Below, one piece after another: positions 16,901 through 62,764 of a DNA stretch of 64,000 nucleotides. The position numbers and the translations under genes were made by a program. Below the pieces are notes generated by a model. It was not told the origin of the DNA, did no database searches, and saw only the letters and a list, made by a program, of their open reading frames with translations. Source of the DNA: Halichondria panicea (lineage: Eukaryota > Porifera > Demospongiae > Suberitida > Halichondriidae); contig NC_087382.1 of the NCBI RefSeq assembly GCF_963675165.1, forward strand, positions 1,488,001-1,552,000. The letters run 5' to 3'. How positions within the stretch are numbered: the first letter of the stretch is position 1; the number at the start of each line of letters is the position of its first letter.

Positions 16901-19900
16901 GTCTACAAGGAACACAGCAAGCTCATCGGAAAGCTCTCCTCCGAGCGACCCTCACACCTTCCTCTGTTTGTGCTCATTATTGGTGATGGTGGCGTGGGGA
17001 AAAGCACTCTGTTGAAGTCCATTCTGAGCTCAAAAGGGTTTTGGTCTAAACTACGGAAGGCAAAACCTGTAGATGGTATCGATGCAAGAACAGTTGGGAT
17101 CATACCGTACGAAATATACACCAAAGAGTTTGGGAAAATCATCTACTTTGATTTTGCTGGTCAGAAAGAGTTTTACACGAGCCACTGTGCCATTCTGGAG
17201 AATGCTGTTCAAACATCACCACTCATCATTAATATCCTTTGTGCTAAGCTTATAGATGATGAGCAGGCGATTATTGATTCCACATATCGTTGGTTGACCC
17301 TCGTCCAAAACCAGTGCACCAATCTGAAAGGTAAAGCACACATGATAGTAGTTGGTAGCCATGGCTGACCAGGTGAAGGAAATGGGAGAAGATCTACAAG
17401 CAAAAGAGAGCATCTTTGCCCCCATTATCAAGCAATTCCCAAAGTTTGAGTTCACAGAGTTCATTCCAATGGATTGTCGCTTTGCTGATTCGAATGATAT
17501 GACAAAAGCAAGACAACAGATTCAGAAAAGCTCCGCTATTCTCCGCTCTCCAGAAACTATCAGCCTAAATGCTCACACCTTTTACATCTATCTTGCCGAA
17601 AGCTTCAAAGACGAACTTGCTTTGTCTTTGAGAAATGTCTACGAAAGAATTAAGAGCGATCTTAACGAGGGTCTGTCAAAACGCACCCAAGATATTCTTT
17701 CTTTCATACCCAGCACCTTGTAGAGATCTGTGATCAGCTGCATAAAAGAGGTCTCCTCTTGTTTCTCCGCAATGACAGCTCTCCAGAGAAGTCTTTCTTA
17801 GGGATTGACCAAGCAATGCTTCTGTCCAGAGTCACTGGGACCGTGTTTGCTCCTGAAAGTTTCCGCCAGCACTGCAAGCTAGCTTCAAGCACTGGAGTAG
17901 TGCCTTTGTCGAAATTCAAGAAAGCATTCAATGGCTACGACATAGAGATGCTGATCGCCTACATGTCTCATTTAGAGTTGTGTTTCGAAATTATTGACAA
18001 GCAAGTGTTGCATTTCATTTCGAAGGAGATTGCTTCTTCCACTGACAGAGATACTTCTGTTCCTGAGTCTGACACTCGATACCTCTTCTTTCCACGGCTG
18101 ATTCGAATCAACACTCCAGAGCAAGTTTGGAAAGAAGCTCAAAGCATCAAGTACCTCTTTGGTTGGGTACTCGAAACTTCTCAAAACACAGAGTTTTTTG
18201 ATTCACGCTGCCTTCAGGTCCTCATTCTGAGGATAGTGTTCATGTTCCGACTTTCCTCTGCCAGCATAGTACTAGATGATGTTCCTTCCCTGCAGAGATT
18301 CTGCTCTGTGTGGAAGAGTGGGATCTGCTGGTGCAACGATGATGGGATCACCGCACACCTCGAGCTTGCTGAAAATGGTCAATCTCTTGTTCTCAAATTG
18401 CGTTCTGACACAGTTCGACCTGAAGGTCTGATTCATCGATTTAAAATTTTCAGCACAATTCGTGAGACTGTTAAAAGTTTTGGCCGCAATGTGAATGTGA
18501 TTGAATCGATTATTGATCCAAATGAAGTTGTCAAGCATTGTCTGAAATATCCCTCTGACCTTCCACTGGTCAACATCAAAGATATTGCAGCAGCTGTCTC
18601 CTCCAACAGAAACACAATCAAATCGACACAACAAATTGCCTTTGGCTTCAAGCACCTCTTACAGTTTGAGCCGTACGCTGGCCTGGATCAAACCACCATG
18701 CAGTGTATCCACAGTGACAAGAATGCCAAGAAAGATGAGAAAATCTGCAGAGCTTTCATTTCCCATTTTGCCGGCCAATTTGCCAACCCCGACATTGAAG
18801 ATCGGGATCAAGTAGCTCGAAACAGTCACAAGTACAGAAGAATTCTGAGCCTTTCTAATGTCAACATTCAGTCGGTCAGTCCCAGACAGGAGGTGGTCCA
18901 GGCCCTTGAGATGTGGAGGAGTGAGACTGAGGGAACTTAAAGCTGTCTGAGGAAGACTTTCAACAAGTACAGCGTCTTCACTGGCAGAAACCCTCTGGTG
19001 AGTGAAATTTAACTTAATATATGTAGTTAATTTTTTCATGTACATATACAGGACCTAGCTGGTACGGCTCATGATGATATTGATCCCTCTGTGTTTAGTA
19101 TCAGTGGAGATGAGCAAATGGTGAGTAGCAATATCTTAAGCTGCTGTCTCTTTATAAAAGGCTCTAATTAATAACCTACATGAATGTACGTAAAACTATT
19201 ATAATGCATATTCATTGTTAACTCCTTTGAGTAAAAGAAAAATAATTTTAATATGCAAGCGAGTGTACATTTGAATATTGAAGTCTAGATCTAGCATTAA
19301 TCACAGAAGTGTGCACGAAACAATAATTACTGCATGCATGTATTACTTTCACAGGACCATGATGCATTGAGAGAAGAGCACTCAATATCTCTTACCTCTA
19401 CCTCAGGTAAGACTTCTGTAAAAAAATATCGATGTTTAATCTTCACACTTTCCTCACTGACTGACCAAAGAAATTCTTGGTTTTACTTCATCCCTCATCT
19501 AATCATGCCCCCCCTCCCTTACATGCAATTGTTAAAACTGTGTGTCTGGCTACATTGATGTTCATGGCACTAATCAATGTTTCACTTTCTCCATAGGATC
19601 ACCCGTTAATCAAGTCACGCTCCAAGAACTAATAACCCTATACGATCTGACTGACAAGCAACTCAACAGTAACATAGAGGTCACTGCATGATACTCCCAA
19701 AATCATGGCTTTATGTTTTGATAATGTGAGCATGTATTCGAGTGCCATGGGACTAGCTCCTGCTGAGCAAGCCGATGTGAATATGTGGTACCACAGAGAA
19801 GGAACTCAAACAGCCATGATGAAGTGCTTGAAAATCTGGAAACAACATTATTCTTCACAAGCAACGTACAGAGCTCTACTGGATATCGTACTTGGATTGG

Positions 19901-19950
19901 GGAAAGGAGACACAGCTAATCTAATCTGTCAGCAATTGACCCAACGTTAG
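13954..19950 (+). CDS. Ankyrin-Roc-COR-Death (Roco family) protein, 5' partial, several frame breaks
   Basis: Exon 13954-14252 encodes ankyrin repeats (GYTPLHISIH, STPLHKACVHN). After a 2.5-kb intron, a large exon (16796 to about 18997) finishes the ankyrin part and encodes a Roc GTPase (P-loop GDGGVGKST, DFAGQ switch, VVGSH) and a COR domain. Short exons (19052-19120, 19354-19406) and an exon from about 19599 end in a Death domain (WKQHYSSQATYRALL) and stop at 19948-19950. Frame changes occur near 16890, 17362 (extra G after AGCCAT), 17710, 18935 (lost T) and 19687 (CATG insertion). Roco proteins are GTP-regulated signalling proteins and a Death tail suggests innate-immune or cell-death signalling; that role is inferred. 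The 5' end is not found, and the breaks may be mutations or sequence errors. Confidence 0.75.
15061..15194. mobile_element. Foldback element with GTTAGACACTG ends
   Basis: Arms GTTAGACACTGTTTAGGAAG and CTTCCTAAACAGTGTCTAAG are nearly perfect inverted repeats around a core with AGAAGCCC and CCCGAACG. A related element is at 38684-38826, and a core fragment lies near 27010-27060. Confidence 0.7.
15262..15341. repeat. Four-copy 20-bp tandem repeat
   Basis: Four imperfect copies of TACATGATTTTCTAAGTA-like sequence, visible directly. Confidence 0.85.
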
Positions 19951-22446: not shown

Positions 22447-22840
22447 TTAAGTGCTGAACACATTCTCCCGGTACTTCACTTCATAGACTAACAGGAAAGC
22501 AAAGAAAAACGTTCCAATCATCAACCCAACCAAAGACCGCCTAACCACAAAGTTAAGATCACCTAGTAAGTTATATAGGCTCTTGGTACTTGGCAAAATA
22601 ATAATGAGCAATGGCCAGAGCAACGAGAGGTATTCCTCCAAAGCTGATCACCCAGTAGGGAAGGTACTCCGATCCAAGAGGAGGCAACCCATCACCCTGT
22701 ACGGAAAGTAGCAAACTTGCATGTAAAGAGAATGATATATGACGAAGTGTTTACTTACTTCTGTCAGCAATTCAAAGCCATGCAATGGCGATGAGCAGCC
22801 ATGGGATGAGAGTCACCAAGGGCTAGGCAAAGAAAAGCCC
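22447..22840 (-). pseudogene. Diverged four-TM family member, copy J
   Basis: Minus-strand pieces align with the four-TM family. An exon-2-like stretch near 22840-22765 reads PLVTLIPWLLIAI. Exon 3, ending at the acceptor at 22696, reads GSEYLPYWVISFGGIPLVAL. A last piece ends EVKYRENVFST and stops at 22447-22449. Exon 2 carries a CATG insertion (22779-22782). Removing it restores a frame through LLIAIGFELLTE to a GTAAGT donor, matching LLIVIGFGWFTV of the intact copies. First exon and exact exon 3/4 junctions are not resolved. Confidence 0.5.
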
Positions 22841-24685: not shown

Positions 24686-26466
24686 GTGTTTTGCAAGTTG
24701 CTTGTCATTGTGCACAGTAAATGGGCGTTGTCTATAGTACTACTGAGTCTGTAGTAAAGTGAATGTGTCTATTCAGCAAAAAAATTTTTTGCTTTTGCTA
24801 ACTTAGTTAGCTAAGCTGTTATAGTGTATATGCACATGCAGTACTCTGTTGACTTGCTATACTTCTGTTGATTTGATCCAGTATGGCAGTTGTTTTATTA
24901 TAGAAGTGCACTACAGTGGTTTTCCTTACCTTTGCAGGCTATACTGCAAGAGCACTGCAACCAAAAAAATAAAAAAATAAAAGTAAATTATAGTATAATA
25001 ATAGTAATAATAGTAAATATAGTATTTTGGTTGGCTTCTGTTATGATTGTTAGTAACAAGCCAACAAAATTACTTGCTATGGCCTGCAAAATGGACCTAA
25101 TTGCTGTAGTAGCCTAAGACGTCAAATTAAAAATCGCCAAATTCTAATAGCTCACTCGCCAAATAATTATAATAGCCGCTAAATGTTCCAGGTGTCTCAT
25201 ATTTTGTCTGACTGAAGTGACGATAGCTCAGCTAACTTGTTGCCCCTTGAGTTGTGTGAAAAGTCTGCAATACCCAGTATTTTACCCATCATTATGCCTC
25301 GAGGGATACGGTAAAGCTGACTGTGTGTGTCTGTGTGTCTGTTCCAGCTGTAACTGCTCAACGGTTGCAATGCGACGAAAACTAACAGCTTCTATAGGCT
25401 TCTAGCCACGTTCTCTTGGATTTTGATTCATGGATTAGCAAACTAAAGCTTCTTTCTCGAGTTATGGCTAGTTTGACTCACATTGAAGGCTGTTGCAGTC
25501 TCTTCAGAATCTTTCATAGCATCATCTGTCCGCACAAACTTTCTATTCAACATATGAGTTAGCCTTGCACTAAAGCGCTAGCTTTTTGTTAGCTACAAGA
25601 CTCAGAAAATACCTGTTAAAACAGCTAGCTAGCAGTAGCCATTAATTTTTTTGTGAAATTGATCTCTTTGGACACACCCTTTAATTATTCCTATGGATGT
25701 AATGCGCATGCGCGCTCATTCCCCAGATCAGATCCTCCTGGCAGAATCATATTTTTCTTGAGGGCCTGGTAAGCCACAAAACACTACTATAGATAACAAT
25801 ATGCATGTACACAAGTCTTTTCTTCTTAAATATTATAATTATACACTGCATGAACTACAGATCCAATTTTCTTCTTTCTTGAGGTCCTGGTATTAAACCC
25901 ACATAATACAACAATAGATGCATGTAATAAGTCTTTTCTTCTCAGTGACTTTATATAGATAAGCTAACTTTATGAAATAATTATGCACTTCCGCTTATAA
26001 TTAATTGAAAACAAAATCTTCTTCTTTGTTGCTTCCTAGATCCTTGAGGTCCTGGTATAAGCAGCCACAAAACACAACAATGATACCATAATTATACAAT
26101 TGCAAGTCAGTTTTAGACAGATTATTTTATACACTTTTTCCTCTTCTATACTTTCTCTTCTATACTTTTGAGCGAAAGCAAATCATGGCGAGAGGCATTA
26201 GCACAGCGCCAGCTTGAACACTAGTTCATTTTTGTGATGTGTGGGTGGACTAAAATAACACAGACAGGTAATCACTACATTGTGGTTGCAGTGCTCTTGG
26301 AGTATAGCCTGCAAAGGTATGGAAAACCACTGTAAAAGAGCAGGTGGACAACTTTCTCTAGAAAGTTATGAGTCAGCACATTCCTGATTAAATCTAGTAA
26401 CCACAGTAGTACTATAGACAACGCCCATTTACTGTGCACAATGACAAGCAACTTGCAAAACACAGT
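24686..26466. repeat. Large inverted repeat, arms about 180-280 bp
   Basis: The arm 24686-24963 recurs reverse-complemented at about 26285-26466. Shared stretches include GTTTTGCAAGTTGCTTGTCA, AAATGGGCGTTGTCTATAGT and GCACTGCAACC. The 1.3-kb interior has three imperfect tandem units starting with TTGAGG(G/T)CCTGGTA (near 25755, 25880 and 26040). No coding capacity was seen. It could be a foldback transposon or an inverted duplication. Confidence 0.6.
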
Positions 26467-28251
26467 AACTCTATAATGTTATTACCCAAGGAGCACTGGG
26501 TGGCCAGGGGTATAGTATAGTTCATTGAGTTGCACATGCGCAGTAACTCAGAACACGCCTACATTTTACATGGCAGTAAAATATATAAACAAACAAAACA
26601 TAAACAATATGTACACAAAATTAATGGAATTTTTATGATTTCCAATCAATGTTGAAACCACATTTTTTGTGGTAAAGTTTGCTAAAATTAAAAATTAATG
26701 ACTTAATATTTTTGGTGCTATAATTTTTAGGTGTTTCTGTGTATGTTGAATAATTTGATTAAATAGGTGTCATCAATTTGAATAATAGGCTGATGAAGTT
26801 GAATAATAGGTGAAAAAATTTGAATATTTGGCACAGGCCTACCCACATGCATGTGCATATACATATATAGTGATAGATGCATATATTCCATGGTTGATAT
26901 AGTCTAAGAGAGAATTCCAGTGTATATGGGGGAATCTACCACCATGAGAAGATAAGATCGAGACAAGGATCTGTGGCTGGGCAACAGATCAACAGATCTG
27001 GCCACTTGTAGTACCCTCGCTACGCTCGGGATACTAAATCAGTATCTTTGGGCTTCTAAATCCCATATAGGGCATTTCTCATCTGACCGGTCTGGGAAAG
27101 AATAATAAACCTATTGTTGTTTTCATGTGTTGTATAGGTTTTAAATCAGTTTTGATGCATTGTATTTTGTTGTGTCAAGGTTAGTGCTACAAGCTAACAT
27201 CAACATAGTTAGAGAAAGAAATGAGTCATACTTCAGTGCATTCCATTATTTTTTACTCATGCAAAATGTGGATACATGTACACGCCTGTCTGTGTTGCAT
27301 ATATACATGTACAGTGTTTGTCCTAGCTAATTCTGAAAACAGTAGCCATACAACATGACTGTAGTATACACAGCTGTCAATTACAGACCCACATTATACT
27401 CCATGGTTGAAAGAAACTCCAGTGTGTTGGGGAATCTACTATGGTGGGAAGATCAAAGATAAGTGTGCATGGCAACAACAAATAATGGTATATACTATGT
27501 GGTACACCTGAGATAGTATACGTACCTGAGATAGAAAAGATCATGATATTGGCAAAGATAAGTTCCCTCTCAAGCTCGCCTGACAGCATATATACACAGT
27601 AATTATAGATGGCTATTCATATAATTATTATAGCAGCACCAAAATAACATGCAGTATAATTATAGCTATTATAATTTATGAGGTTCAATTCACTGAAGAA
27701 AATAAAAATGTTCATTAATGTGACAGTACAAACAAATAAGGTTCACTAATTATTAATGATGAAATGATCAGCTATACAGAGGAGGCTGGAACCACTTGTC
27801 CTTAGCTAATTAAGGTCACTAATTGCAAACTTCTCTCTTGCAGACTACTTTAAGCCTAGATTTTAGTGTCTGTAAGTTTAAAAGTCAAATTGTATTTTTG
27901 CCAATTTTGCTCATGCAAAAAGTTAGAGATACTAGTCTCAAAGCTATAGCTGTACGACAACCTCGAGAACAAGCCGCACGATATCAAGGCTAGTACAAGA
28001 GTAAAAGTTTTGATTGTATCTCTTTTGAGCAAAATTAGCGAAATATGTGCCCCCCCCCCTGCAAAATAAGGTTTTAAACTTACAGACACAAACAAAACTA
28101 GGCTTAAAGCAGTGTGCAAGAAAAGTTGGAGAAATTCAATTATAAGTGACTTTAATTAAGGTCAAATGGTTCCAGCCTCCTCTGGATCAGCTATAACACT
28201 TACAATAACGTACAGTACATACATGCATGTTCTATTTACAGGTCACTGTTA
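26467..28251. other. Downstream flank of four-TM copy B, array-unit repeats
   Basis: No supported gene. It carries 3'-flank repeat copies (about 26880-27000 and 27390-27600) and a fragment of the GTTAGACACTG foldback core (about 27010-27060). A further inverted pair with GCTGGAACCA/TGGTTCCAGC lies near 27785 and 28170. Confidence 0.45.
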
Positions 28252-29530
28252 TTAACTAGTATACTGTTGGTTGTTCATGATAGCTTCTTCGGGCACTTCA
28301 TAGAAGGTCCATGCCACCATCTGACCAGTCTGCATAGAGAGAGAGAGAGAGAGAGAGAGAGAATAATTATTTGTTTTCATGTGCTGTGCAAGTATAATTG
28401 TAGTTGTAAGCTGCGTGAACAGTATCAGTTTCCTTTTGCAGTTAATGCATTGTGATATTTTGTCGGTGTCATGCAGTGGAAACCTGTTTCCTCCCATATA
28501 CTCATGTATACTACAGAGCAAGGCTGGGGATTTGGTCAAATTGTTACTTAAGTTTACACAATTCAGTGCATTTGATAATTTTAACAGACCTTCCCACCAG
28601 AGGAAAACCTCTCTATATAAAGGACATTAATTATAATATGGCCCAGCCTATTAAATTATGGCACAGAATGAAATCACTATACTTAATTAGTAAAGTACAC
28701 AAAATTAAGCAACCGGGACAGCGGACACTGAAGCTTAACACTGTGCAAAGTTCCTCTTACTATATACGGACAAACAGGAAACCACACCCAAATTCGAACC
28801 TGATATACGGTGCATGCACTCACCCAGGACAGAGTTCCAATTAGTGTTCCGGCAAACAACAAGTTTACAGGATGAATCAGGAGGCCTTGGGCGGCAGCGA
28901 TAATAATACTGCCTCCTGCATCAAAGAAGATCATCCCAAGACATAGAAGGAATACGACACTCAAAACTGTCGTCTGATGAGATAAATAATTTATTGTTAA
29001 GGAACTGTAAATATTTACACATAGCAGCACTGATTAGACACTGATTGGCTCTCCAATCAGTGAGGTCTCTACACTGAGATAAAGCATAATGAGGATACAG
29101 CGGTCCTGATGATCTTAACTGCAGATCGTGCACTGATAATAGCATGAACAGCTCCCAGCACGATGATTGGAATACCCAGCAGAGAGATGAACCAATAGGG
29201 GAACCAACCAGAACCCACCGGTGCTCTATTGGAGCCCTGGAAATAGGGGGGGGATGCATAGCTATCAGTATAGAGTATAATTATATATAGAGTATAATTA
29301 TGATTATAAGGCCCCACAATACTCTTGCACTCGATCAATCATTGAATATATAGCAGCACATGCATGCTCACAGTTGTGAACCATCCGAATCCAATCACAA
29401 TGAGCAGCCATGGTAGAATAGTAAAGCCAGCCAAGCCCAATCCAAGCTGCAAGGTGTCAGAGACATTAACAACAATTCATGCAAAATACCACAATTAGAA
29501 TGCTACCTTTCTTGCTAGTCCTTCCAACAT
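28252..29530 (-). CDS. Four-TM array gene, copy B (intact)
   Basis: Five exons: 29507-29530, 29372-29446, 29099-29236, 28824-28973 and 28252-28329, all phase 0 with GT-AG introns. The product is about 154 aa. It starts MLEGLARK, then helix 1 (LAGFTILPWLLIVIGFGW), helix 2 (WFPYWFISLLGIPIIVLGAV), helix 3 (VLSVVFLLCLGMIFF), helix 4 (NLLFAGTLIGTLSW) and a conserved tail TGQMVAWTFYEVPEEAI. The short first exon was chosen because MLEGLARK is conserved in all copies and a TATA box lies 60-100 nt upstream. A longer ORF beginning MTSEEM overlaps that TATA box and is not conserved in frame. I do not recognise the family. A polytopic membrane protein with a cytosolic or lumenal tail is the only functional statement supported. 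Confidence 0.8.
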
Positions 29531-32242: not shown

Positions 32243-32280
32243 TAGTGTGATTCTTGAACGATTCTTGAATGCTCCATTAA

Positions 32281-33002: not shown

Positions 33003-33849
33003 TATTGTGGGGTCTCATTAAGTATAGCCTTAGGCCTGTCTGTATTGCATATATATACATGTATCAGTGTTTGTCCTAATTCTGAAACCATGCAGTAGCC
33101 ATACTGTATATAGTACACAATTGTCTATGTATTACAGACCCACATTATACTCCATGGTTGAAAGAAACTCCAGTGTATTGAATTATATACCATGTGGGAA
33201 GATGAAAGACAAGTGTATATACATGTATAATTTATGCATGCATGTCCTATGTTGTATATCTGATCGAGGTAGACTCAACTCTTAAAGATAAGTTGCTATA
33301 ATAATAGTATAATTATAGGCAATCATGTAGAGATCGAATCTCTCCTTTTATGTTATGGATACTCACAATGGCCATGCATGCATGCATGCTACCTCTTCTG
33401 GCAGCACAAAATATATTATAGCATGGCTATATTTAGCCTCGACTCCAGCCCCTTGAATAGTGGGCCTGGTATTTACTGTTGGCACGTGGGTGGACAATTA
33501 ATTTATTATTTACCGTATTTTATCTCATTGAACGTTAAAACAGTATTTTATCTTATTGTGATAAAGAACAGAAAAAAGAAAAAGGAGAGGCTACCTCTCT
33601 TAGCTGTATATACTGTAGACAGAGACAGCTAAGTAAAATATCAGCTCTGTAGATTTATTCATTAACTTGAGGCTCGGATCGGATATATACACACTCAGGC
33701 GACAAGTTAATCTCATAAGAAATTAGTTAAACCTGTGGGTAAAAAATAAATGTGGATAAGTACAGTGGCTGTGACGTAACATAATGTCAGGACTACTTAT
33801 TGATTTACACAATAGATTTACCATTGAAAGCACTATCCATTAATACACA
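33001..33849. other. Array-unit repeats and satellite-like tandem sequence
   Basis: 3'-flank repeat of the four-TM unit at about 33010-33430, then a foldback half end near 33429-33480. From about 33660 to 33960 there are imperfect repeats of CGGATACACACTCAAGCAAC-like sequence. No supported gene. Confidence 0.5.
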
Positions 33850-34346: not shown

Positions 34347-34595
34347 TACACAACTTGGACTAGATTTCTTTTTTCAATGACATCATTATAAATGAAACGG
34401 ATATCAATGTTTTACAAACTAATGCGGAATAAGAATACTGATAAATATACTGCAATTTAGGAAATTTGTAACGGGCACTTTCTACAAGTCACACATGCAC
34501 TGTTATAACTAGTACTGTACTACTAACATGCACTAGTCTTATGTATAGTAAAGTATACACACATGCATGTTCTATTTATATACAAGTCACTGTTA

Positions 34596-35157: not shown

Positions 35158-36247
35158 TCATGCAGCTAATACTATAATTAGTAACGGGCACTTTCTACAA
35201 GTCACGCATGCACTGTTATAACTAGTACTGTTGGTTGTGTTGATGATAGCTTCCTCGGGCACTTCATAGAAGGTCCATGCCACCATCTGACCAGTCTAAG
35301 AGAAAGAGAGATAATTGTTTTTGTGTGCTGTGCAAGTAATTGTATAGTTTTAAGCTGTAATTTCGCATAATTTGCAATCGAAAGAACCGCAAAGAGTGAG
35401 CATGCGCATGCCATTTCCCATGCTTTGCATGCAATTGGCAACCAGGAATAAGTGTCATTCGTAATCGATTAATCTTGCATTCGAACCTGATATATGGTAT
35501 ACATGCACTCACCCAGGACACAGTGGCAATTAGTGCTCCAGCAAAAAATAAGTTGACAGGATGAACCAGGAGGCCTCTGGCTGAGTATACAATAATGAGG
35601 GTTCCAGCATCAAAGAAGATCATCCCCAAACAGAGAAGAAACAAAATACTGACAACTGCATGTTGTCTGATGAGACAACTTGTTAAGAAAATGTGAATGT
35701 ACACATATATATATAGTACTGATTAGACGTTAATATCATGACTTTCTGTTTTGACACAAAATCACATGTATCGTTTCACTGTTTGTATAATTATAGGCAG
35801 AAAATACAACAGTAATATATACAACCCTTTTAAATTGAAGATACAATCGTCCTGAGGATCCTAGCGGCAGATCGTGCACTGATAACAGCATGCATGAACA
35901 GTTCCCAGCACGATGATTTGAATACCCAGCAGAGAGATGAACCAATAGGGGAACAAAATAAGCCCCACTGGTGCTGTACCGGTGCCCTGCAAACAGGGGG
36001 GGGGCTAGAGTGAACACATGCAGACTATATGGTTTATATAAGTCCCCACAATAATACTCTTGCATTCTATTAATGATTGAATATGCAATTGTATATACTC
36101 ACAACAGTAAGCCATCCGAATCCAATCACAATGAGCAGCCATGGTAGAATAGTGAAGCCAGCCAAGCCCAATCCAATCTGCAGATATAATTGCAATACTA
36201 TAGAATGCATGCAACAACACCTTTCTTCCTGGTCCTAGTTCCAACAT
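35158..36247 (-). pseudogene. Four-TM array gene, copy D (two CATG insertions)
   Basis: Exons: 36221-36247 (MLELGPGRK), 36103-36177, 35845-35986, 35513-35666 and 35158-35295. Splice sites match the intact copies. Exon 3 is 142 nt instead of 138, with CATG duplicated at 35889-35896. Exon 4 is 154 instead of 150, with CATG at 35659-35662. Each shifts the frame. The last exon runs past the usual tail into a longer end (about 22 extra residues, CRKCPLLIIVLAA) because the usual stop is lost. Confidence 0.8.
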
Positions 36248-38683: not shown

Positions 38684-38826
38684 GTTAGACACTGTTTTAT
38701 CGGTGTCCATGCATGTGATTTAGAAGCCCTCAGCCACATTAGTACCCTCGCTACGCTCGGGATACTAAATCACTGCCTTTAATTGGGCTTCTAAATCCCA
38801 TAGACACCTCCAAAACAGTGTCTAAC
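38684..38826. mobile_element. Foldback element with GTTAGACACTG ends
   Basis: GTTAGACACTGTTTT at the left pairs with AAAACAGTGTCTAAC at the right. The core has ACCCTCGCTACGCTCGGG. Same family as 15061-15194. Confidence 0.7.
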
Positions 38827-41036: not shown

Positions 41037-42069
41037 GCACTATTCAGCACAAAGAGTATTATGTTTATTATAGCACAGAAAATAAACTTTCATTTTAACA
41101 GTTGCTTTAATTGTATATACTTTGAAAGTGATTCACTAAAGATAGAGTTTCAACAATTAATAATTATTAGCTAATACTTTAACTCTAAAGTCACTAAGCG
41201 TAGTTGTATTGATAGCTTGCAATCTGATAGGGCGCCACTATGCTGGCAGCAGAACAACAGGGTCGTAAATGTGGTTTGTCAAGTGCAAGCACACCCACAC
41301 AAAATGTGCACAGTGCGCATGCAGGGATCAAAGAGTGTTTACTATACTACTCAGTTGTAAATGGTTGGATAACAGCTTCTAATTGCAATAGGTGCTCATA
41401 GTACAAGCTATAGTATATACCTGTCTGTGTGTGTACATATTGTTATATTGTACTACCTCGTGCATGCCGTTATAATTATGTATTCCCTCGGGGAGTACAT
41501 AGAACTGCCCTCGGTAGTAAATCCAATACACCCTTGATATATCCATGGTACAACCAAGGGCTTCATACGCCCTTGGTACAACTATTATATGTACAGTGTT
41601 TGTCCTAATTTTGAAAAAAGTAGCCATACATACAACATGACTGTAGTACACAACTGTCTATTACAGACACACATTAATATACTCCATGGTTGAAAGAAAC
41701 TCTAGTGTATTGCATGGGGAATCTATCATGGTGCATGGGAATATCAAAGACAAGTGTGCCAAGCAACAACAAAGGTAAACTATAATGTATCAGGTATTAT
41801 ATACCTGCATGAGATAGAAATAACATTATGATACTCCAGTTAATTGCTTTGCAATGTAGATCAAAAGAAGCTCCCAAATACGTGGTTCAATTTACCAAAG
41901 AAAACAAATTAATGTTCATTGTGACAGTATAATTATAGTAGTATACGAAAAAATTAATGGTTCTCACTAAAAATGCATGATGGAGTAACCTACTAACATG
42001 CACTAGTCTTATGTATAGTAAAGTATACACGCATGCATGTTCTATTTATATACAAGTCACTGTTATTAT

Positions 42070-43752
<1,683 letters not shown>

Positions 43753-46180: not shown

Positions 46181-46927
46181 TAGCCTCGATTCCAGGCCGC
46201 TTGAAAAAGGCGGCCTGGTATACCTTGTATGCGCATGCGCGAAATAATTGACAACAATTTCATCATACAAATTGTAAAAAAACGGACAAAGTTACAAAAG
46301 GGTATGACAATGTGACCACAATGGCAGCTTTCAGAGACACTAATCAAAATAGAATAATTATACTGCAGCAGTGTTGCTTCTTCTAGCTCTGTTTATCAAA
46401 GAGACAGTTCAAGAAAACCTCCCAGACAGCTAGAGCTGCCAGCTAGGAAGAGTGCATGGTGGAGTTTTTAATACATCAGTAGATCTTGAGTGAATAACTT
46501 CCTGAGTGTCGAGTTAAAGCTTATTAAAAGCTTTCAGGAGTAATTATTAGCTTCTTTATCTTCAGCAATGACTTCTTGTCGAACATAAAGGCAAGATTTA
46601 GTAGCAGAACACTTGCCTGGTCTATATTACCACAGCCTCATCAGGGGACCCACAGGAACACATCATGCCGTTCCTATAACATATGTAGCCTTACAGTGTA
46701 GGGTGTCGTTAAGTAGAGACTTGGCTGGATACAATAAAGGGCGTAAGAACTCAGTCATCTTTGCACAATACTCGGACTGTAAAATCAGAATACAAATAGT
46801 ATACGGTTTATTTTACTGACAGTATCCACAAATACACGGATTACCCCCTTTTTGGGGTAATGTACACGCATGCGCATACAAGGTATATACCAGGCCGCTT
46901 TTTTCAAGCGACCTAGAATCGAGGCTA
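46181..46927. mobile_element. Element with TAGCCTCGAT/ATCGAGGCTA ends
   Basis: TAGCCTCGATTCCAGGCCGC at the left and an inverted CCAGGCCGC...ATCGAGGCTA at the right enclose 747 bp. TATACCTTGTATGCGCATGC is mirrored inside the right end. The flanks (CATATATGC and AGTGTATGC) match only partly. It contains no supported gene. Confidence 0.65.
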
Positions 46928-50115: not shown

Positions 50116-50155
50116 ATGTCATCTCTAGACAACCTTTCCCCTTTAATACTTTCTT

Positions 50156-52045: not shown

Positions 52046-53168
52046 TTATACTGGTTTATCGCTGCTGCTGCTGCTGCCGGCTTCAGGAACTTCATAGAAC
52101 GTCCATACCATCATCTGACTAGTCTGTGTATATATATAATTATAGAGGGGGAGTACAAAATAAACAGGTGTGCAGTGATGACATGTATCCCTCTGGCTCT
52201 CAGTGCATGTATCTGCTAATCAGCATGCATGGATAATTACGGTTAAATTAATAGTCAAATTGTGTGGCACATATATACAGTATATTATAGTGCACACATT
52301 TTTATTCAGTAAAAACACTTCTATACATGCATGCATGCATAATTATTATACTGCATGCACGTATACATGTACTCACCCATGACAGTGTGGCTAGTAGCGC
52401 ACCAGCAAACTGGAGGTTCAGAGCATGGAACACAGAACTAGATCTGATGGAAACTGAAACAGAACTGGAAATTAATGCAATTCCATTGAAGTATAAGATC
52501 ATTCCCAGACAGAGAAGAAACAGAATACTGAAAAATGTTGTCTGAAATAAACTGTTAAGGACCACAGTGTATATTGAAGACTATATATAATTATTTATGC
52601 ATGCATGCATGGGTCTATAATATATATTCGGGCAAAGTAACTAATAATTATTATAGGTCTTATAGTTATAACGGATACAATGGTCCCGATAATCTTAGCC
52701 ACAGATCCTGATACACCAAGAGCATGAACCACTCCCAGCACAATGGTTGGAATGCCCAGCAGGGAGATGATAAAATGGGGGAAGAACACAGAGCCTTGTG
52801 CAGCAGGTATACCTGAGAAATTCTGCAACAGAAATAACCATGCATGCATGCAGTTAAGTTTAATATTAGTGCATGAGCCATGCCACAGTATATAGCTCAG
52901 CTGCGTCTTATTACATTACATGCACGATAATTATAGATACAGTGTAGCAAGCTATACATATAATTATTGTATATACCAGGGCGGCCAATCCAAATCCAAT
53001 CACGAAGAGCAGCCATGGGAGAGCAGTGACTCCGGCCAGAACCACTCCAATCTAGCATGGCAAATTATTTATAGCATGATAAAAGTTAGAACTTAAGAAG
53101 CTATGATATATAGCTGAGAAGCAATAGAATGCAACAAATGATACCTTTCTTGCTAATCCTGCCAACAT
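52046..53168 (-). CDS. Four-TM array gene, copy G (intact, diverged)
   Basis: Exons: 53145-53168 (MLAGLARK), 52977-53051, 52679-52822, 52377-52541 and 52046-52123; about 161 aa, all in phase with GT-AG introns. The helix 3-4 loop is longer and serine-rich (SSSVSVSIRSSS). The tail is TSQMMVWTFYEVPEAG followed by five serines and DKPV. It is the most diverged intact copy. A TATAAAAAC lies near 53261-53270, but the upstream block was not recognised. Confidence 0.8.
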
Positions 53169-54289
53169 TTTTATTGCAGAGTCCAGTAGAAAAGGTAGCA
53201 GGAAATATTCAGTCAGTAGTTTTGTAGCAATCAAATTAATAATTGTGGACCAAAAACATTGTTTTTATAGAGGCCATCACTCCTCTGATGCAGAGTATCA
53301 GTAGAATAGAAGTTAATTTAGCGATCTCTACCAAAACTTCCTCTTAATTATCTTTGCACATGTAGCTTTGAATCCACACAGATTAATCTGCGTGGATTCG
53401 AGGCTAATGCACATGATGCATGTGAGTCAGTCTTGGATCCAGTGGCACTATCCTAGACTCGCCAGCCAGCCCTTCCTCGGGTAGCACTATCCCTGTGTTA
53501 ACCATAGTAACCTGAGGAGATCTGATTCTCCTCATGCATTTGCTCCTGTATTTTATCTGCGTGCAACAGCCATGCATGCAAGATCAGCTAGAGGATTTTT
53601 GGCTACGTTATACATGATACAGATGGTGGTGATTGTGATGTCATTGCCCATCACTAATAGCCTATGCACACATACACTGATCATGATATCATGTGTACAC
53701 TCCAACTGTACTACTCTGAACAATTATGACGCATAACATTGGAGAGAGGATTTTCGGTAGTCCCGAATTCCAGCCGGTTCTCATTGACGCTTACAATGAG
53801 TCCCTCCCACGCTTACAATGAGAACCGGCTGGAATTCGAGACTATAGATTTTCGGCTCAGTGCATGCCGGATAAAGTAATTAAGATGGTGTATGTACTAG
53901 CTGTGATGTCAGGGTGCATGGAAAAGAAGGAAAAGGAAAACGGAAACGGAATGCGGAAAGCAGAAACGGAAGGGGATTCACTAAGTTCACCCCAGAGGAG
54001 GTACGACATCTGCGTGTCATCCGCATGTCTTTAACACACACATTCCTAAGGTCTCTGAGTTCACCCTGTTTGAAACGGTTACGTCATTATTTCATTACAT
54101 CATTCATAAAAACACATAGTAAAAATGTTGTATAGTGTAGTAAACAACAGAGACAGAGACACAACAGCTACAGAACATCAACTATACTTATTGAAGTCTT
54201 CTGGCCATGTATTTGTTTCTACCATGTTTTGTAGTACTGGTACAGGTATAGCTGGCATGCTGACACCAGGTGGAGTGATAAATTGACCA
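53169..54289. other. Intergenic region
   Basis: No supported gene. A small hairpin GAATCCACACAGATTAA/TCTGCGTGGATTC lies near 53371-53402 and a foldback element at 53758-53846. A purine-rich stretch (GGAAAAGAAGGAAAAGG) is near 53920-53975. A possible alternative C-terminal exon for the next gene, reading GLLNGQFITPPGVSMPAIPV on the minus strand, spans about 54178-54325. Confidence 0.45.
53758..53846. mobile_element. Short foldback with exact 9-bp TSD
   Basis: TAGTCCCGAATTCCAGCCGG pairs with CCGGCTGGAATTCGAGACTA. GATTTTCGG flanks both sides (53749-53757 and 53847-53855). It is a divergent relative of the TAGCCTCGAG family. Confidence 0.75.
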
Positions 54290-57200
54290 TTAAGGAGACC
54301 ACGAGTAAGGTCCAGAGGGCTGATCCTGCATGTTGATAGAAGGGTGAGCCAACACATTTATTGATGAGTTGCATTTGGTCTTTGCGAGCTGTACACCTGA
54401 AAAAGTTATATTATAATGTGTTGGCTGAAGTGTCTCAGATGTGGCAAAAATTTACATTTCTTGGTGACGCAAAACTGTTTTTTCCTCCCAGGACCTCCAA
54501 ACTTGGGCTTGTCTAGGCAAAGTGTACAGGTTCCACAGTCATTGGCCTCGTGACAGCCCTCACAGTCTCCACATCTAGACCGCTTCTTCCCAACTACATT
54601 TACCAGGTACCGTAACGTAATGATAATCTTGTTGGCAAAGAGTACCGTATAAGCTCTATTTAAGGCGCCACATAAAAATATTTTCACTGGTATAGGTGGC
54701 TGTATTCAGAGGTTGAAAATTAGTTTTGAGGCTGAGGAAAATTAGTTTAGAGGGCCGCCTTCTAATTGGAGATAAAAAAACAGCTTTTCCAACCTCTAAT
54801 ACGGTTACCTTTACCAGCGTAAATATTTTTATGTGGTGCCTTAAATAGAGCTTATACGGTACCTAACAAACATCGATTTTCTCCATCGTAACAACAGCCC
54901 CTACTTTAATTATACACAGTACATGAGTACTGTATAGTATATACATGTATATATACCTGTGCTGCTGTGGCGCTTATCATTAGAATCAGGAATCTTGCCC
55001 GCCATCGTGTCAGTGGTTGTAGGGACTTTAATTTTCTCCTGTACAAAGTACACTGATTATAATAATTATAGACTGTGTTTTTACTTACTGCTGAAGGATG
55101 CTTACCTTTCGTAGCCAATCAGCTTTCTTTCCAACCCTATTCCGAAGCTTTGAATTCTGTTTTTTTCTTGTGGTAATTGCTCTCGAAACTCTCCTAACAA
55201 TACTTGTAGCTTATCCCCAAATCAAGCAACAGCTTGCTGTCAGAACATGAATAACTTAGTGTCTCCAGGGATTTAAGTGTGATTCGAGCTCTCTCTCTCT
55301 TGCTTTTCTTGAAGACATTTCATGTTCCTGTATAAAATAATGAAGGTTACCGTACAAACTAATCTTCTTACCCTTGTAGGAATATCGTCGGGTGTAGGTC
55401 CTGTTTCACAAGAAATCTCAGTATCGTGATTTACAGATTGCACTTGAGCAGATGATTGTGAAAAATGGCTTTGCAAAGCTAGTATGTCTGTTGAAAGGTA
55501 AGCACTGTTTTGATATTCTTGCGGTAACCTTTCCCACTGCCATTGTTTAGTATGTCAAAATACTGTAAAAAAGTGCTTACAATGAAGGTAGTGTCTAATC
55601 CAATCCTTGCATGTACATGAAGGGGTTTTGTTGTCAGTATTGAGCCTGAAATTCACTGTATGCTTGCCTCCTGCAATATCAAATATCCCAAGGGCATTAT
55701 CTACAACCTTTAGGGATTGCGCTAGAAATTTTGTACTGTTGGTTCTTCTATCAAGGCAGTGCAAGACAACAGATCGAGGGCGATTATGAAGGTATGATGG
55801 TATACAGCTATTGTATGCGCGGTACTGAGATAGTTGCTGGTAGTTTTGCAATAAGTACTTGTATTTCACACTCGGCAAGTAATTTTCGACAATAATGGTC
55901 ACTGTACTCGAGAGGGTTGCCTTTTGCTTTTTTCTAGGCAAGAAAGTGTACTTAAACAGCTTATTTTGGGCCTCCGTTCCGTTGTTCGTATCAACAGCAG
56001 CGTGGTAGCAGTTGTCTCTAAAGGCTCTGGCCCAGCGCTGTAAGGAAAGATTAATACATGTATGTGTTGGCTTTATTATAGTTCTGTATAAAAAGTACAT
56101 ACCTTGGGGATGTTTAGCCATTTTGTAGAAAGCCACTGTCTTACCATGAGATGGTTTTTCCATACATCTGATTGTTTCAGGTCATTCACTGCAAGCTTAT
56201 AGAGGGCGGCAATATCCTCATCCTCACCTGGTTGAGCCCATGCACAAGCTCGAAGTAAGGTAAGTACAGTATCTGCTTCAGAAGTAGAGAGGCCGTGCTT
56301 ATGGTCCTTAACCATCGGGTCCATGCTTGCTCTCGGTGAAAATCACATAAATAGACAGTGACTCCTGAGAAAGCTGTTTCAAGGGCTGTTAGCTCTGCTT
56401 CAGAGTAGTCACACATAAAGTATTGTGGGTGCCATGTTGGGTTCCAAGCTTTTAGTATTGTTAGAGCTTCCAGAATATGCTTTGTTGTTTCACTTTGTAT
56501 GATAAATTCTGCCACTACTGAGTACCCAACATTTGTGCGAACACATGAAGAACAAAGCAAGTTCATACTTAGTTGTTTTATACGTGGCATCAATAAGGCT
56601 TATCGTGTTACCATATCGACCTAAAAGCTGCTTTTGCCAGTCTGTTTGGTGCACCCATAGAAGGGTTTGCTCATATTGCTCGTTGTCAGTTATTGACAAC
56701 TCTCCATCAATTCCATCATTTCCGCTGAAACTATCCCCCATTATTGTTTCATTCTGAGTTTCTTTTTGATCTTCGCTATTCTTTTTAGCTACATATGGAC
56801 GAAAATGGTGGCTACTCTCAGGGTACATTTTATTCCATTGTTCAACTTTGAGTTTCATATCAGGCTTTTGGTCTAGGCATGACAGTTGTAGGGCTCGCTT
56901 AGCCATGTAAATATGATTTCTTAAGTCAGTGTTCGTTGGAAAGTATCCCCTATCGTTGGGATCTGGTAGATTTCCCTTGCATATATCCCCTTGCATCACA
57001 TAGTGGCGAAGGAGTGTCCTTACCTGATGAATGTCAGTAATACCTTGGCTAACTATTTCCGCAATTTTTTGTGCTACTTTTTCATTTATTCTTTGAGTGA
57101 ACCCTGCAACTCCCTCACCTGTAGGATGACCTTGATGTGATTCTACAGTTGGCAAGGAGATATAGTAAAGCGTTTTAGATTTTGGAGCATCAGGGTGTTC

Positions 57201-57728
57201 GTTGAGTTCAGCTTTTAGTTCAGCCATTTTTTTTCTTTAAGGGTACGTAGGGTAATGGCTCGAGTTTCGTGTGCATGAATAGAAGAATACTCAGGGTACA
57301 AAATACATTTTTTTATTGTTACGTGTGCCAAGCATTCTATTTTGCGACTGCCTTGAATAAATACCCTCGAGCTCTTCTTTGTCTTCTCTTTGTAATAGTG
57401 TGGGCCAAATTGACAATCGAGAGTTCTAGTTTCAACAATACAGAATGGAGTTGGTGTACTTACTACCATTTTCCCCTTGCTCCAAAATAGAATTACCTGG
57501 TTATACAACACAAATTAGTTATTGTTATAATTCCCTGTTTCTGTATACATTTTTACCTTGTTCTCTTTGTTTTCACATATACAGATGTCTTACACGAACG
57601 TCGAGTTCCATAGCAAGTTAAAGTCTCTTGACTATGGATCTGTAGCACTTTGTCAATGTCACTTACCCACCCTTCATAGTATAAGCCATTTAGACTTAGG
57701 TCTATCGCCCTACGAGCAACATATATTT
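54290..57728 (-). CDS. MULE transposase-like protein with SWIM and CXXC zinc fingers (5' truncated, several breaks)
   Basis: Minus-strand exons: 57728-57557, about 57479-56103, 56037-55372, 55327-55106, 55038-54957, 54593-54456 (CXXC) and 54396-54290. An N-terminal part is followed by a MULE core with DATYKTTKYELALFF, FMCDYSEAELTALE, CDFHREQAWTRW and TNNGTEAQNKLFK, so the D-D-E residues appear kept. A SWIM finger follows (CTCKDWIRHYLHCKHFF). The CXXC finger reads RCGDCEGCHEANDCGTCTLC...KFGGPGRKKQFC, the CpG-binding type of KDM2/CFP1. The last linker exons join in phase. Lesions are a lost A or so near 57225, a frame change near 56548, a lost G near 56319, an in-frame TGA at 55555-55557 (likely CGA originally) and a frame change near 55215. 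The 5' end is cut at about 57728, where the POMP relic begins. Confidence 0.7.
54642..54862. mobile_element. MITE in the intron before the CXXC exon
   Basis: GTACCGTATAAGCTCTATTT at the left and AAATAGAGCTTATACGGTAC at the right are perfect inverted ends, extending through ATAAAAATATTT. The inside has GGTTGAAAATTAG and related inverted motifs. About 220 bp. Confidence 0.85.
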
Positions 57729-57730
57729 TA

Positions 57731-60720
57731 GGTGACTATGGTGGAGCGATTAGTGTTTTCCACTCAGGTAGTGTTGATATCTCCAACAGCGAGCTGACAA
57801 ACAACAGTGCTGACCAGAGTGGTGGAGCAATTGATGTTCACTCATGTAATATGTCCATCTCCAACAGTACGCTGACATACAACAGAGCTGACCAGTGGGG
57901 TGGAGCAATTCATGTTGGCTCAGGCCTTACTGTGTCCATCTTCAACAGTGAACTGACAAACAACAGTGCTGACTATGGCGGTGGAGTGATTAATGTTTAC
58001 TCAGGAAGTGTGTCCATCTCCAACAGTGAGCTGACATACAACAATGGTGAAGTGATTTGTGTTGGCTCAGCCAACGCGTCCATCATTAACAGTACGATAG
58101 CCAACAACAATGCTTCCTACGGTGGAGTGATTAACATTTTTCAGTCTGCCTTGATCTTGAAAGACACTAACATTACTAATAACATGGCCAGTTCTATGGA
58201 GAATGGAGGCATTATTTATGTTTTCGACAGTCGAGTCGAGTTTAATGGACCTACAACACTCAGTAACAATCGCGGTGTGTTTGGTGGAGCTATCAGCGCG
58301 CTGACCGGAGTGAAATATTCATTAACACAGAAGGAGTTATCATCACCAACAATACAGCTACCTCTGGAGGAGGGGTATTTCTGAGAGAGAGTACACTCTT
58401 CGTAAATGAGCCAATTAAGATCTATCACAACACAGCACACAAGAACGGTGGAGGGATTTATGAATATTCTAGCAGAGTTGTTTTTCAATCTTATATATAT
58501 GGACAAAGTGAGATTGCTCACAACATTGCTGGAAATGGTGGAGGTATTTATGCAGTATCTTCAACTGTCGAACTTACTCAATCATATGTCAACATTGACT
58601 CAAACGCAGCTAATACTATAGTGGAGGTGCAGTATATCTACAGCAAAATTCGAAACTTTATCTATTTAAAAAGAATCAAGAAAATCAAAATTTGCATAAT
58701 ATTTATGTCAAGTTAATGATTAACAACAACTTGGCTCAGTACGGAGGGGGAATATTTGTGGCAGATGACACAGAGAGTGGTGCCTGCAGAGTAGGGGCAA
58801 CAGAAACTGATGCAACCCAAACCATTTTTTCTGACTGCTTCATTCAAACAATTAAACTGTATAGGAACAGCTATGATCGAGACAACCGTATCAACACATT
58901 CATGACTAACAACACAGCTACCCAGTCAGGAGCAGACATCTACGGAGGTCTGTTGGACAGGTGTACAGCAAATCATAATGCTGAATATAGAACTTCAAAA
59001 GGACTAGACTATACATCCATAAAACCGTGAAATCTTCCACCAAACCAACATCAATCTCCTCTAGGCCTGTTCAGGTCATTTTGTGTAACCATTCACAATA
59101 TGGCTATGGTTCTACAAAAAAGGGACACACGTTTACAATCAGTGTTAAGGCTGTTGACCAAGTTAGAAATCCAATGAATGCAACAATTCGCAGTTTTGTT
59201 ATCAGTGAGAGTGGAGTTGCTCGCCTCAAAGAAGGACAAGCAAAACAGGAAGTTGGAAATCAGTGCACAGAATTAGAGTACAATGTATTCTCACAAGACA
59301 GCTCTGCTCAAGTGGAACTCTATGCCGAGGGTCCATGCAACAATTTAGGAATTTCAAGACAACTTGTTAATATTTCTTTTCTACCCTGCATATATGCCCT
59401 AGTGGACTCAAACCAGTCCATGGCCAGTCCAATATTGAGTGCAAGTGTGACTGCAGGGGCGGATCCAACAGGTAGCAGAGGGTGCTCAAGCACCCCCCTG
59501 ACCTTGGACAAATTAATTATCTTTGTCATTGGTTGATGAAAGTCACTCAGACTTGGTACTAGCTAGCTGAGTAGCTGTAGACCTATCTAGTACAGTAGTA
59601 TCTTTAAAAGCTGTGCACTGCAGTGCAGACTAGGCTCGACAAGAATAGAGTGCAGTACAACACTTGCAAAATTATCTGTCTTTATTATTGACACCGCACC
59701 TACCGGAAATGACGTCAAAAGGGGGCATAACACCGAATTTTCGCGCGCTACCGCGCGCATTTATTGAAGTAGACTCTTGCAGCACCTACCTATCACTTTT
59801 TCTAGATCCGCCACTGTGACTGTGATAAAGTCCTGCAACAAGACTTTCAGATAACCAACTGTTCTGAGGAAAATGGAACCTTAAAGCTGGAAAGTAACAT
59901 ATGGATAAGAGTTGCAAATACCACCAATGGAACAGGGTATGTTGTTAGCAGCTGTACATTTGATTATTGTGTAGAAAAACCAATCAACATCAGTCTAAGC
60001 AACCCTGACGAACAGTGTGCCTACAATCGAAGTGGTGTCTTGTGTGGAGAATGTATATCAAATTTCAGTCTTGTGTTGGCTACGTCAAACTGTAAAGAAT
60101 GCTCTAATCTTTACCTTCTTCTACTAATACCATTTGCGCTGGCAGGCATATCATTAGTTGCTTTAATTCTCATGCTCAACATCACTATAGCAACTGGAAA
60201 TATTCATGGCCTCATTTTTTATGCCAACATAGTAGCTGCTAATAGAGCAATTTTGTTTCCTACTTTAAACAACTTTTTAACAGTTTTCATATCATGGGTG
60301 AATCTTGACCTGGGAACCGAGACATGCTTTTATAATGGAATGAACTCTCAAGCAAAAGTTCTCCTTCAACTTGTCTTTCCCGCTTACTTGTTTCTTCTAA
60401 TGTTTCTTATTATCTTTTAAGCAAGTACTCTGACTCATTTGCAAAGCTCCTCTCCAACAGGAACCCAGTTGCTGCCTTAGGCACACTCGTCCTTCTCTCT
60501 TATTCTAAACTCTTGCGGTTTATCATTGCTGCATTACAAAACAGGGTCCTGAAATATCCTGACGGTTCAACCAAGACTGTTTGATTGTTTGATGGCAACG
60601 TACAATACTTCACTCCTAATCACATCCCTCAGTTTGTTGCTGCTGTCATAATCCTCATTGCCGGTGGATTGCTGTTGCTATGTTCAAAATGCACCATAAT
60701 GCATGAATCTCATATTCTGC
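57731..60720 (+). pseudogene. POMP-like beta-helix membrane protein relic (copy 2)
   Basis: Homologous to the gene at 665-5457 but lacking the signal peptide and first repeats. Beta-helix repeats (SNSELTNNSADxGG) run from 57731. The middle and first helices follow (LLLIPFALAGISL, NHGLIFYAN-like). Lesions against copy 1 are a lost base near 58318, an indel near 58617 and a frame change near 59029. There are also an AT insertion near 59390, a 361-bp hAT-like MITE at 59454-59814, a lost base near 60415 and a TGA at about 60582 where copy 1 has TGG. Similarity fades near 60690, so the last helices and tail are missing. Dead copy, oriented opposite to copy 1. Confidence 0.85.
59454..59814. mobile_element. 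hAT-like MITE inserted in the POMP relic
   Basis: Left end CAGGGGCGGATCCA and right end TAGATCCGCCAC(TG) are inverted repeats. The 8-bp duplication TGTGACTG lies at 59446-59453 and 59815-59822. Copy 1 at about 2340-2360 preserves the uninterrupted site. Confidence 0.9.
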
Positions 60721-61657: not shown

Positions 61658-61740
61658 AGATGCAAGCAGCTGTGACTAGTCTCTTTCAGTAATTTTTGTA
61701 GAAACTGTGGTGTATTTTGTTTTGCTATAGGGATATAAAC

Positions 61741-61848: not shown

Positions 61849-61908
61849 ACTATTACATATTCCCACTATATACATAGCTACATTATAATAGGTGAGCTAT
61901 TATGTGTA

Positions 61909-62318
61909 CAGTAGACTCTCATTAATCCGGTCACCCTTGGGACCATGCAGCTTGGTCGGAATAGCGAGGTGGCTGTTTCTCAGAAAATAGCCGTGGCCTT
62001 ACCTCGAATCTAATAACTACTTTTGCGGTTCTTGTCTCGAGGATAATGAAGGATAATGAATCATTCTGTTTCTATTTAAGTGTAATCCAATTTTATTTGC
62101 TAAACCACACCCAAAACGTCCTATCCGGCCGTATAATATACATATAAAAACCTTGTTTGGGACACAGCCAGCACTGGCCGGTAAACGGAATAGCGAGTAG
62201 CCATACTTCAGGGTGAGTTTTGTGCAGAAAACATATAGATAGTATTCCGTGCCAAGCCAAATGGCCGGTATATCGAGGTGGCCGTACTTCAGAGAGCCGG
62301 AATAGCGAGAGTCTACTG
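61909..62318. mobile_element. pogo/Tc1-type MITE with TA duplication
   Basis: CAGTAGACTCTC at the left and GAGAGTCTACTG at the right, each flanked by TA. The inside repeats CCGGAATAGCGAG-type motifs on both strands. No transposase. Confidence 0.8.
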
Positions 62319-62386
62319 TATACACATGCAGAATTAATCCATTTTGATAATTAGATGATTATATTAAATCAATGCACAACTTTTAC

Positions 62387-62764
62387 CGGTTGGGATGATG
62401 CAAATCCGAGCACAAAGAGCAACCATGTGAGAGCATGCAGTGACTACAGCCAGGACCAATCCAATCTAACATGGTATATAGGTGCATGCTAACTTTGACG
62501 TCAAAATGATCAGCATGCATGAAAGTATATTTTAGCTGTAATAATAATAATAATTATTATAGGAGCAATAGAATTCAATGTTGCATTCTATTGCTCCTAT
62601 ACTATATCACTCCTGACTACAGTTAAAATCGCATCGAGGCATCATTACTGGTAAAACTGCTTTATACAAGCAGCTAACTTCAATGTCAGACATTTAATAG
62701 CTATGCTAGTATAGAAGCAATAGAATGCAACAACATGCACCTTTCTTGCTAGTCCTTCCAACAT
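62387..62764 (-). pseudogene. Four-TM remnant, copy H (CATG insertion in exon 2)
   Basis: Exon 1 at 62741-62764 (MLEGLARK) and an exon-2-like stretch at about 62388-62465. Compared with copy G, exon 2 has CATG inserted at 62434-62437 (ACTGCATGCTCTC versus ACTGCTCTCC), which breaks the frame. Exons 3-5 are not found downstream. A TATAAAAAC lies near 62869-62877. Confidence 0.65.

Follow-up and report, generated by a model that had tools for sequence, protein, structure and literature searches.

What writes the same four bases again and again into one stretch of a sponge genome? In a window of 64,000 nucleotides from Halichondria panicea (positions 1488001-1552000 of contig NC_087382.1; "the window" means this whole stretch), an earlier note had pointed to exact CATG insertions that turn TG into TGCATG in exons and repeats. 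The letters of the window were checked and CATG is present at every site listed in that note; for the gene copies D, H and J and for the 3'-flank repeat, there are paralogues without the four bases. These insertions belong to a broader pattern, namely a genome-wide gain of very short self-complementary insertions at 2-bp targets, and this observation is real and recurrent. The alignment gaps follow a palindromic rule with an exact duplication of 2 bp, prefer TA and TG, have a majority polarity towards insertion and reach across the genome. The framing around CATG alone was too narrow, and a specificity for CATG is rejected, because several self-complementary units take part.

The genome comprises 131.5 Mb, with 17 chromosome-size contigs among those examined. 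Tract and word statistics were computed on the window and 17 loci of 10 kb (234 kb in all), one from the 1-Mb position of every large contig, an arbitrary and not a randomised placement. For the gap tables four 3-kb loci were added, and for the final event table also 20 copies of one dispersed repeat. An all-against-all comparison yielded 1,178 gaps, of which 496 distinct ones were kept once duplicates, gaps in low-complexity contexts and gaps close to the end of a sequence had been removed; 61 of the 496 are 4 bp long. At least three sites are entered twice among the 61 through alternative gap placement (L005:2589/3361, W:35656/35657, W:53137/53139); the surplus entries are not palindromic, so the share of palindromes would, if affected, be underestimated. 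The p-values assume independent events. Polarity was assigned by the majority of copies where at least three alleles were comparable and is not outgroup-based. An earlier table with other cut-offs held 406 gaps, in which the CATG ring made up 12 of 50 4-bp gaps, five of these 12 being copies within a single tandem array.

Self-complementary rings account for 35 of the 61 4-bp gaps, compared with 10.4% in a random-insertion null (p 3e-19). The CATG ring contributes 11 of the 61 against 1.4 expected (binomial p 1e-7), so that the tabulation against other 4-mers proposed in the earlier note did reveal a CATG excess in the sampled loci and the window. Exactly 2 bp of flank homology were found in 24 of the 61 gaps (null 10.8%), and 23 of these 24 are palindromic, i.e. 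23 of the 35 palindromic events share only 2 bp with their flank. In the CATG ring the shared flank is a lone TG or CA in 8 of 11 events; the earlier note was right in proposing recurrent insertion of a self-complementary unit at TG/CA. The other three events have 3, 5 or 6 bp of homology, and slippage is possible for those. The remaining 26 4-bp gaps, none of them palindromic, are heterogeneous. The palindromic share is alike outside (19/33) and inside the window (16/28), and the class is thus not local; the window is nevertheless rich in the CATG ring, which makes up 8 of 28 4-bp gaps inside versus 3 of 33 outside. Among 2-bp gaps with exactly 2-bp homology, 17 of 23 turn TA into TATA.

The individual sites in the window differ in the comparison that supports them; all are given without strand. 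TG has become TGCATG in exon 4 of copy D (35657..35662), where the four bases from 35659 are absent in 5/5 comparable copies, and twice in the 3'-flank repeat (41711..41716 and 41732..41737). The repeat copy at 27304-27548 is without both of the latter insertions; CATG at 41713 is lacking in 2/2 comparable copies, and the evidence for 41734 is that one pair. In exon 2 of copy J (22779..22782) a 4-bp gap appears in all four spanning paralogue alignments, and two further matches begin beyond the site. In exon 2 of copy H (62433..62437) there is a clean 4-bp gap at 62434 against the copy at 52988 and an equal net loss in five other copies, aligned as 2+2 bp. For 35889..35896 in exon 3 of copy D a gain against five copies was confirmed (one CATG fewer in each; one copy unclassified), but it is a single additional CATG adjoining an existing GCATG and not an 8-bp gain, therefore a tandem duplication form with a flank homology of 5. 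In the exon of a Roco-type gene (19687..19690) CATG is present and the reading frames before and after it differ, so that the frame shift here is supported by the reading frame; across this insertion the window yielded no significant paralogue match. Two CA to CATGCA sites were absent from the earlier note, one at 33089..33094 (2/2 comparable copies short) and one at 62734..62739 (2 copies short, 2 unclassified).

Other palindromic units are gained in the same way. The 4-bp gap forms in the alignments are TG to TGCATG, TA to TATATA, TA to TAATTA, CT to CTAGCT and GA to GATCGA. Window examples are CTA to CTAGCTA at 27323..27329 (3/3 comparable copies short), GA to GATCGA at 26956..26961 (2/2 short), a 4-bp insertion turning ATAT into ATAATTAT at 35787..35794 (paralogue alignment), and a TA/TATATA site at 42047..42052, in a repeat found also at 34577, whose polarity reads as a deletion. 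In a dispersed repeat with 25 aligned copies covering each site, GG became GGCCGG in one copy and TA became TACATGTA in one; the non-palindromic CAAT was gained in one copy as well. The units gained at TA targets are TA, TATA and AATT and, it appears, CATG and GATC too. The products are of three kinds: (a) TA-w-TA, with w the filler, (b) XY-rc(XY)-XY, with rc the reverse complement, and (c) ATAATTAT. Kind (b) is chiefly TG to TGCATG, with flanks near those of any ordinary TG. Kind (c) arises from ATAT and from other precursors, sometimes with an adjacent base change.

As to direction, palindromic gaps are mostly gains: by majority polarity, palindromic 4-bp gaps whose homology is 2 bp or more comprise 11 insertions and 2 deletions, and TA duplications likewise 11 and 2. 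The corresponding numbers are 20 vs 42 for 1-bp gaps (4 ties), 16 vs 12 for other 2-bp gaps and 13 vs 15 for 3-bp gaps.

The pattern can also be seen without alignment, using an order-2 Markov simulation per locus as the null. All 17 loci have more palindromic period-4 tracts of at least 6 bases than expected (ratios from 1.18 to 2.58), as has the window (2.22), compared with ratios of 0.97 to 1.21 for other rings. For the palindromic tracts the ratio is 0.99 at length 5 and 1.79 at length 6, with the CCGG ring already at 1.56 at length 5. Palindromic rings of period 6 rise from 1.04 at period +1 to 1.66 at +2, and those of periods 8, 10 and 12 are raised already at +1 (1.35, 1.60, 2.09) and reach 1.74, 2.68 and 3.59 at +2, where non-palindromic rings lie at 0.86-1.08. 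The phase of the tracts largely matches that of the aligned events: among tracts of exactly 6, CATGCA/TGCATG were observed 224 times vs 106 expected and ATGCAT 57 vs 54, and for the AATT words the counts are TAATTA 240 vs 48, AATTAA 130 vs 103 and ATTAAT 62 vs 46. Of the outer dinucleotides, TA shows the strongest enrichment at periods 4, 6 and 10 (2.98, 2.37, 5.93); at period 8 it reaches 3.05 and is second to CG, which has 4 sites. In the 234-kb sample, 12-mers such as TACATGTAGCTA and TACCGGTACGTA (3 each, small counts) consist of palindromic units seemingly chained at successive TA sites, and they look as though each insertion makes new targets. A tandem array at L019:3289-3829 has a unit of about 45-49 bp built of short palindromes (TGTACACTAGCTGTAGCTAGTGTACA).

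Word counts show the same at larger scale. The window contains TGCATGCA 41 times vs 3 expected and TGCATG 137 times vs 30, and TGCATG is 2.3 times denser there than in the 170-kb sample. In the whole genome there are 100,191 copies of ATAATTAT vs 5,899 of the reversed word, 48,206 of TACATGTA vs 21,338 reversed, and 145,529 + 145,032 of TGCATG on the two strands (about 290,600) vs 37,558 + 37,585 reversed; the near-equal strand counts of TGCATG are uninformative on strand relative to genes, and other palindromes behave alike. On average a TGCATG occurs roughly every 450 bp and a ATAATTAT every 1.3 kb. An origin of ATAATTAT and TACATGTA from a longer repeat was considered and rejected, since their flanks have no long consensus (168 and 83 distinct contexts); unlike these, many of the 17 CGCATGCG sites sit in recognisable repeats.

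Taken together, the tract step, the phase and the gap-site results rule out chance and are at odds with an origin by ordinary slippage. The earlier note had offered slippage in existing GCATGC as one source, which finds no support: in the alignments 4-bp gaps occur at 16/93 TGCATG/CATGCA, 6/25 TAATTA and 9/30 TATATA sites, compared with 0.65% of all 6-mers, but at 0/51 GCATGC and 0/15 ATGCAT sites, and the eight lone-TG or lone-CA events have a flank of just 2 bp. Microsatellite slippage of palindromic tetranucleotides in general is very unlikely in our view, although long (TGCA)n tracts do exist (TGCATGCATGCATGCA, an exact 16-mer, occurs 385 times in the genome vs 23 for the reversed word), two of the 11 CATG-ring events have 5-6 bp of homology, the excess grows with length beyond 6, and GCATGC tracts are doubled too. 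The rise is not smooth but a step between lengths 5 and 6, the 23 palindromic events with 2 bp of homology duplicate no adjacent full unit, and ATGCAT tracts of exactly 6 show no excess; due to the step and the short homology slippage is disfavoured as the origin, and it may lengthen tracts afterwards. Selection for binding motifs could appeal to the extreme abundance of TAATTA and TGCATG across the genome, which we take to be homeodomain-like and RBFOX-like motifs, respectively. However, several different palindromes are gained by insertion, in dispersed repeats too and as frameshifts in exons, and the flanks of TGCATG resemble ordinary ones, so that this explanation appears highly improbable. 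A sequencing or assembly artefact is hardly credible, as the genome-wide count of ATAATTAT is far above plausible error and some insertions are common to several duplicate copies (in the L005 array, 5 copies with and 9 alignments without).

Two explanations that involve breaks or copying errors fare better. In a fold-back or template-switch error during replication or end joining, the last two bases would be copied backwards to give XY-rc(XY)-XY without any mobile element. This fits TGCATG, CTAGCT, GATCGA, GGCCGG and TATATA, and short templated inverted duplications that arise at breaks by fold-back are reported in PMC11724301. The filler is indeed the reverse complement of the adjacent bases for TG, CT, GA and GG, but not in TA-CATG-TA and TA-GATC-TA, where CATG or GATC copies no neighbouring bases. 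Moreover, the lengths are not spread as such errors would have it (palindromic in 4/13 2-bp gaps with 1-bp homology and 1/5 6-bp gaps with 3-bp homology; small numbers), and GTACGT is not enriched (1.04). We therefore regard the fold-back as a rather unlikely explanation of the whole. Alternatively, a topoisomerase-like enzyme (Spo11 type) could make breaks with 2-nt overhangs that are then end-joined, its bias giving TA and TG. The TATA gains at TA and the prevalence of insertions among TA gaps would agree with this, but the palindromic filler is left unexplained, and we consider it unlikely.

The reading that we tentatively prefer, with somewhat less than even confidence, combines 2-bp-staggered breaks with a palindromic filler and takes the TA part as Tc1/mariner-like excision footprints; the break, the transposase and the hairpin are what we infer from the products. 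A double-strand break with a 2-bp stagger would be filled in on both sides, which would duplicate the 2-bp target, and a palindromic filler of about 0-4 bp would remain at the join. At TA targets, TA-w-TA would be the footprint of an excised TA-targeting inverted-repeat element of Tc1/mariner-like type, and w would be palindromic because two inverted ends are joined (CA..TG to CATG, GA..TC to GATC, CC..GG to CCGG). Where the target is TG or, less often, CT, GA or GG, the filler is the reverse complement of that target and looks like a hairpin-opened or folded-back end, similar to P nucleotides. TA-CATG-TA, TA-GATC-TA and TA-CCGG-TA could thus be excision footprints of the Tc1/mariner type. Among the 16 TA-abb'a'-TA octamers, observed/expected counts are 83/10.1 for CATG (8.2x), 69/12.7 for TATA (5.4x), 21/3.3 for GATC (6.3x) and 5/1.0 for CCGG (about 5x; five sites only), and no excess was found for AATT (8/7.9), TTAA (8/7.6) and TGCA (5/7.6). 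There are TA-bounded inverted-repeat pairs that end in CA, CC or GA, matching the fillers CATG, CCGG and GATC. DDE_3 transposase matches number 96 (best E 1.5e-29), some of them pieces of one element and several with open frames of more than 300 amino acids, in a profile that is not exclusive to mariner. A footprint with a 2-bp duplication, as suggested in the earlier note, is one possible reading, but TG to TGCATG and ATAATTAT do not fit mariner excision.

A number of results weigh against this combination of staggered breaks and footprints. Single-end footprints, TACATA/TATGTA, are common after Tc1/mariner excision, but here their frequency is not raised (0.89x). For inverted-repeat pairs ending in AT, TT, TG, GC or AC there is no clear corresponding excess of footprints, two of the four GA-ended pairs sit within larger inverted repeats, and no clear long terminal repeats were seen at the three transposase loci examined solely for this check (L042-L044). 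A TA duplicated on both sides is seen for TA-w-TA but not for the TG, CT, GA, GG and ATAATTAT classes; the filler CA in TG to TGCATG is itself non-palindromic, and among the inverted-repeat pairs no clear TG-bounded family was seen. For ATAATTAT, A and T are fixed outside TAATTA (82% on each side of maximal TAATTA tracts), which would not be expected of a TA footprint in random flanks, and neither would the several precursors. Very many events would be needed (about 42,000 excess TACATGTA, extrapolated), and the clean aligned events are only one each for TACATGTA and TAGATCTA. The lean towards insertion is common to 4-bp gaps generally (10 insertions and 3 deletions among the others), so polarity is not palindrome-specific. 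At period 2 the palindromic tracts lack the step (1.00 at +2), and GCATGC tracts of exactly 6 are doubled (41 vs 20.7) despite their ungapped sites. Palindromes are generally in excess (6-mers 1.35x, 8-mers 1.83x), and part of the longer-period signal may therefore have other sources.

Since one defining feature failed its test and part of the class is non-TA, the whole signature should not be filed as mariner footprints. Part of it is quite possibly of an undescribed kind, and the whole resembles known break-and-fill insertions. It is conceivable, though we think it doubtful, that an undescribed genome-wide process writes self-complementary units at TG and TA steps independently of transposon excision; its products would be TG to TGCATG, ATAT to ATAATTAT and TA to TACATGTA, and it would have shaped the word content of the genome. 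In any case a strong and specific insertion signature can be read from one genome. The insertions shift exon frames, and new microsatellites could start from them, as could large numbers of known protein-binding words. Should the signature stem from transposon footprinting, it would be a tally of unusually many excisions; otherwise a break-and-repair process not known so far is indicated.

The window also holds candidate inverted-repeat elements that are apparently TA-bounded (no strand assigned). Those with putative ends lie at 8846..9055 (arms CCGTATAG...CTATACGG), 54643..54861 (CCGTATAAGC...), 24912..26334 (CAGTGGTTTTCC...) and 15063..15193 (GACACTGTTTAGG...; similar at 38686-38824), the last of which another pairing search extends one base outward. 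For 61907..62320 (CAGTAGACTCTC..., similar arms at L014:9091-9516) another pairing search extends a few bases outward, so its ends are uncertain. Inverted-repeat elements with arms TAGCCTCGA or TAGTCCCGA were found at 8388-9093, 62980-63520, 46181-46927 and 53758-53844. Direct 9-bp target duplications flank the first two, a size that we take to be Mutator-like. A family with 9-bp duplications (arms TAGCCTCG) was set aside as the source of the short insertions because its duplication is not 2 bp. A transposase fragment at 31084-32013 (-) matches Pfam DDE_Tnp_1_7 (E 2.4e-17) and is presumably of the piggyBac type.

Among the genes, two copies of a long gene whose repeats are of the GGAI type lie inverted to each other at 665-5478 (-) and 57680-60420 (+), and the copies align; the piece 3757-5478 matches the Chlam_PMP repeat model. 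A family of small membrane-protein-like genes (10424-11096, 28812-29450, 35501-36208, 43071-43700, 48687-49843, 52365-53052) gave no Pfam match in the two pieces tested. The dispersed repeat of about 450 bp (L014:415-800 and copies L022-L041) carries a (CA)n tract and a 3' part ACCGTATACCTCGCTTGCGCATGCGC; it has 2,955 first-look candidates in the genome and no Rfam match at gathering score in the four loci searched.

In the literature, no recognised description of this insertion signature appeared among the best-ranked matches, judged largely by titles and abstract openings. The target duplication of hAT elements is 8 bp, in contrast to the 2 bp found here, and the hairpin enzyme here is putative. 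As far as the available parts of the sources cited in this paragraph go, a likeness lies in the flank-copied palindromic bases, XY-rc(XY)-XY: Ac/Ds (hAT) hairpin footprints are palindromes of flanking DNA (PMC4561436), and P nucleotides in V(D)J joining are copied from the flank in the same way (PMC3528771). The highly iterated palindromes (HIP1) of cyanobacteria are likewise repeated genome-wide (PMC4390886), but they are one palindromic octamer, unlike the several palindromes gained here by insertion in a eukaryote. Short-range template-switch mutations also insert an inverted local copy (PMC7954356), whereas here the unit is a fixed 2 bp and the filler at TA is non-local. From Tc1/mariner the signature differs in that single-end footprints show no excess, and in its TG, CT, GA and GG targets, the fixed-flank ATAATTAT and its sheer number. 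It shares with these elements and with Stowaway miniature inverted-repeat transposable elements the 2-bp TA duplication with few inverted-end bases in between; their footprints retain the target-site duplication plus element bases (PMC4561436), with 1-4 bp of the element end within the TA duplication (PMC1925063), and the genome studied here has both TA-bounded inverted-repeat pairs and DDE_3 matches.

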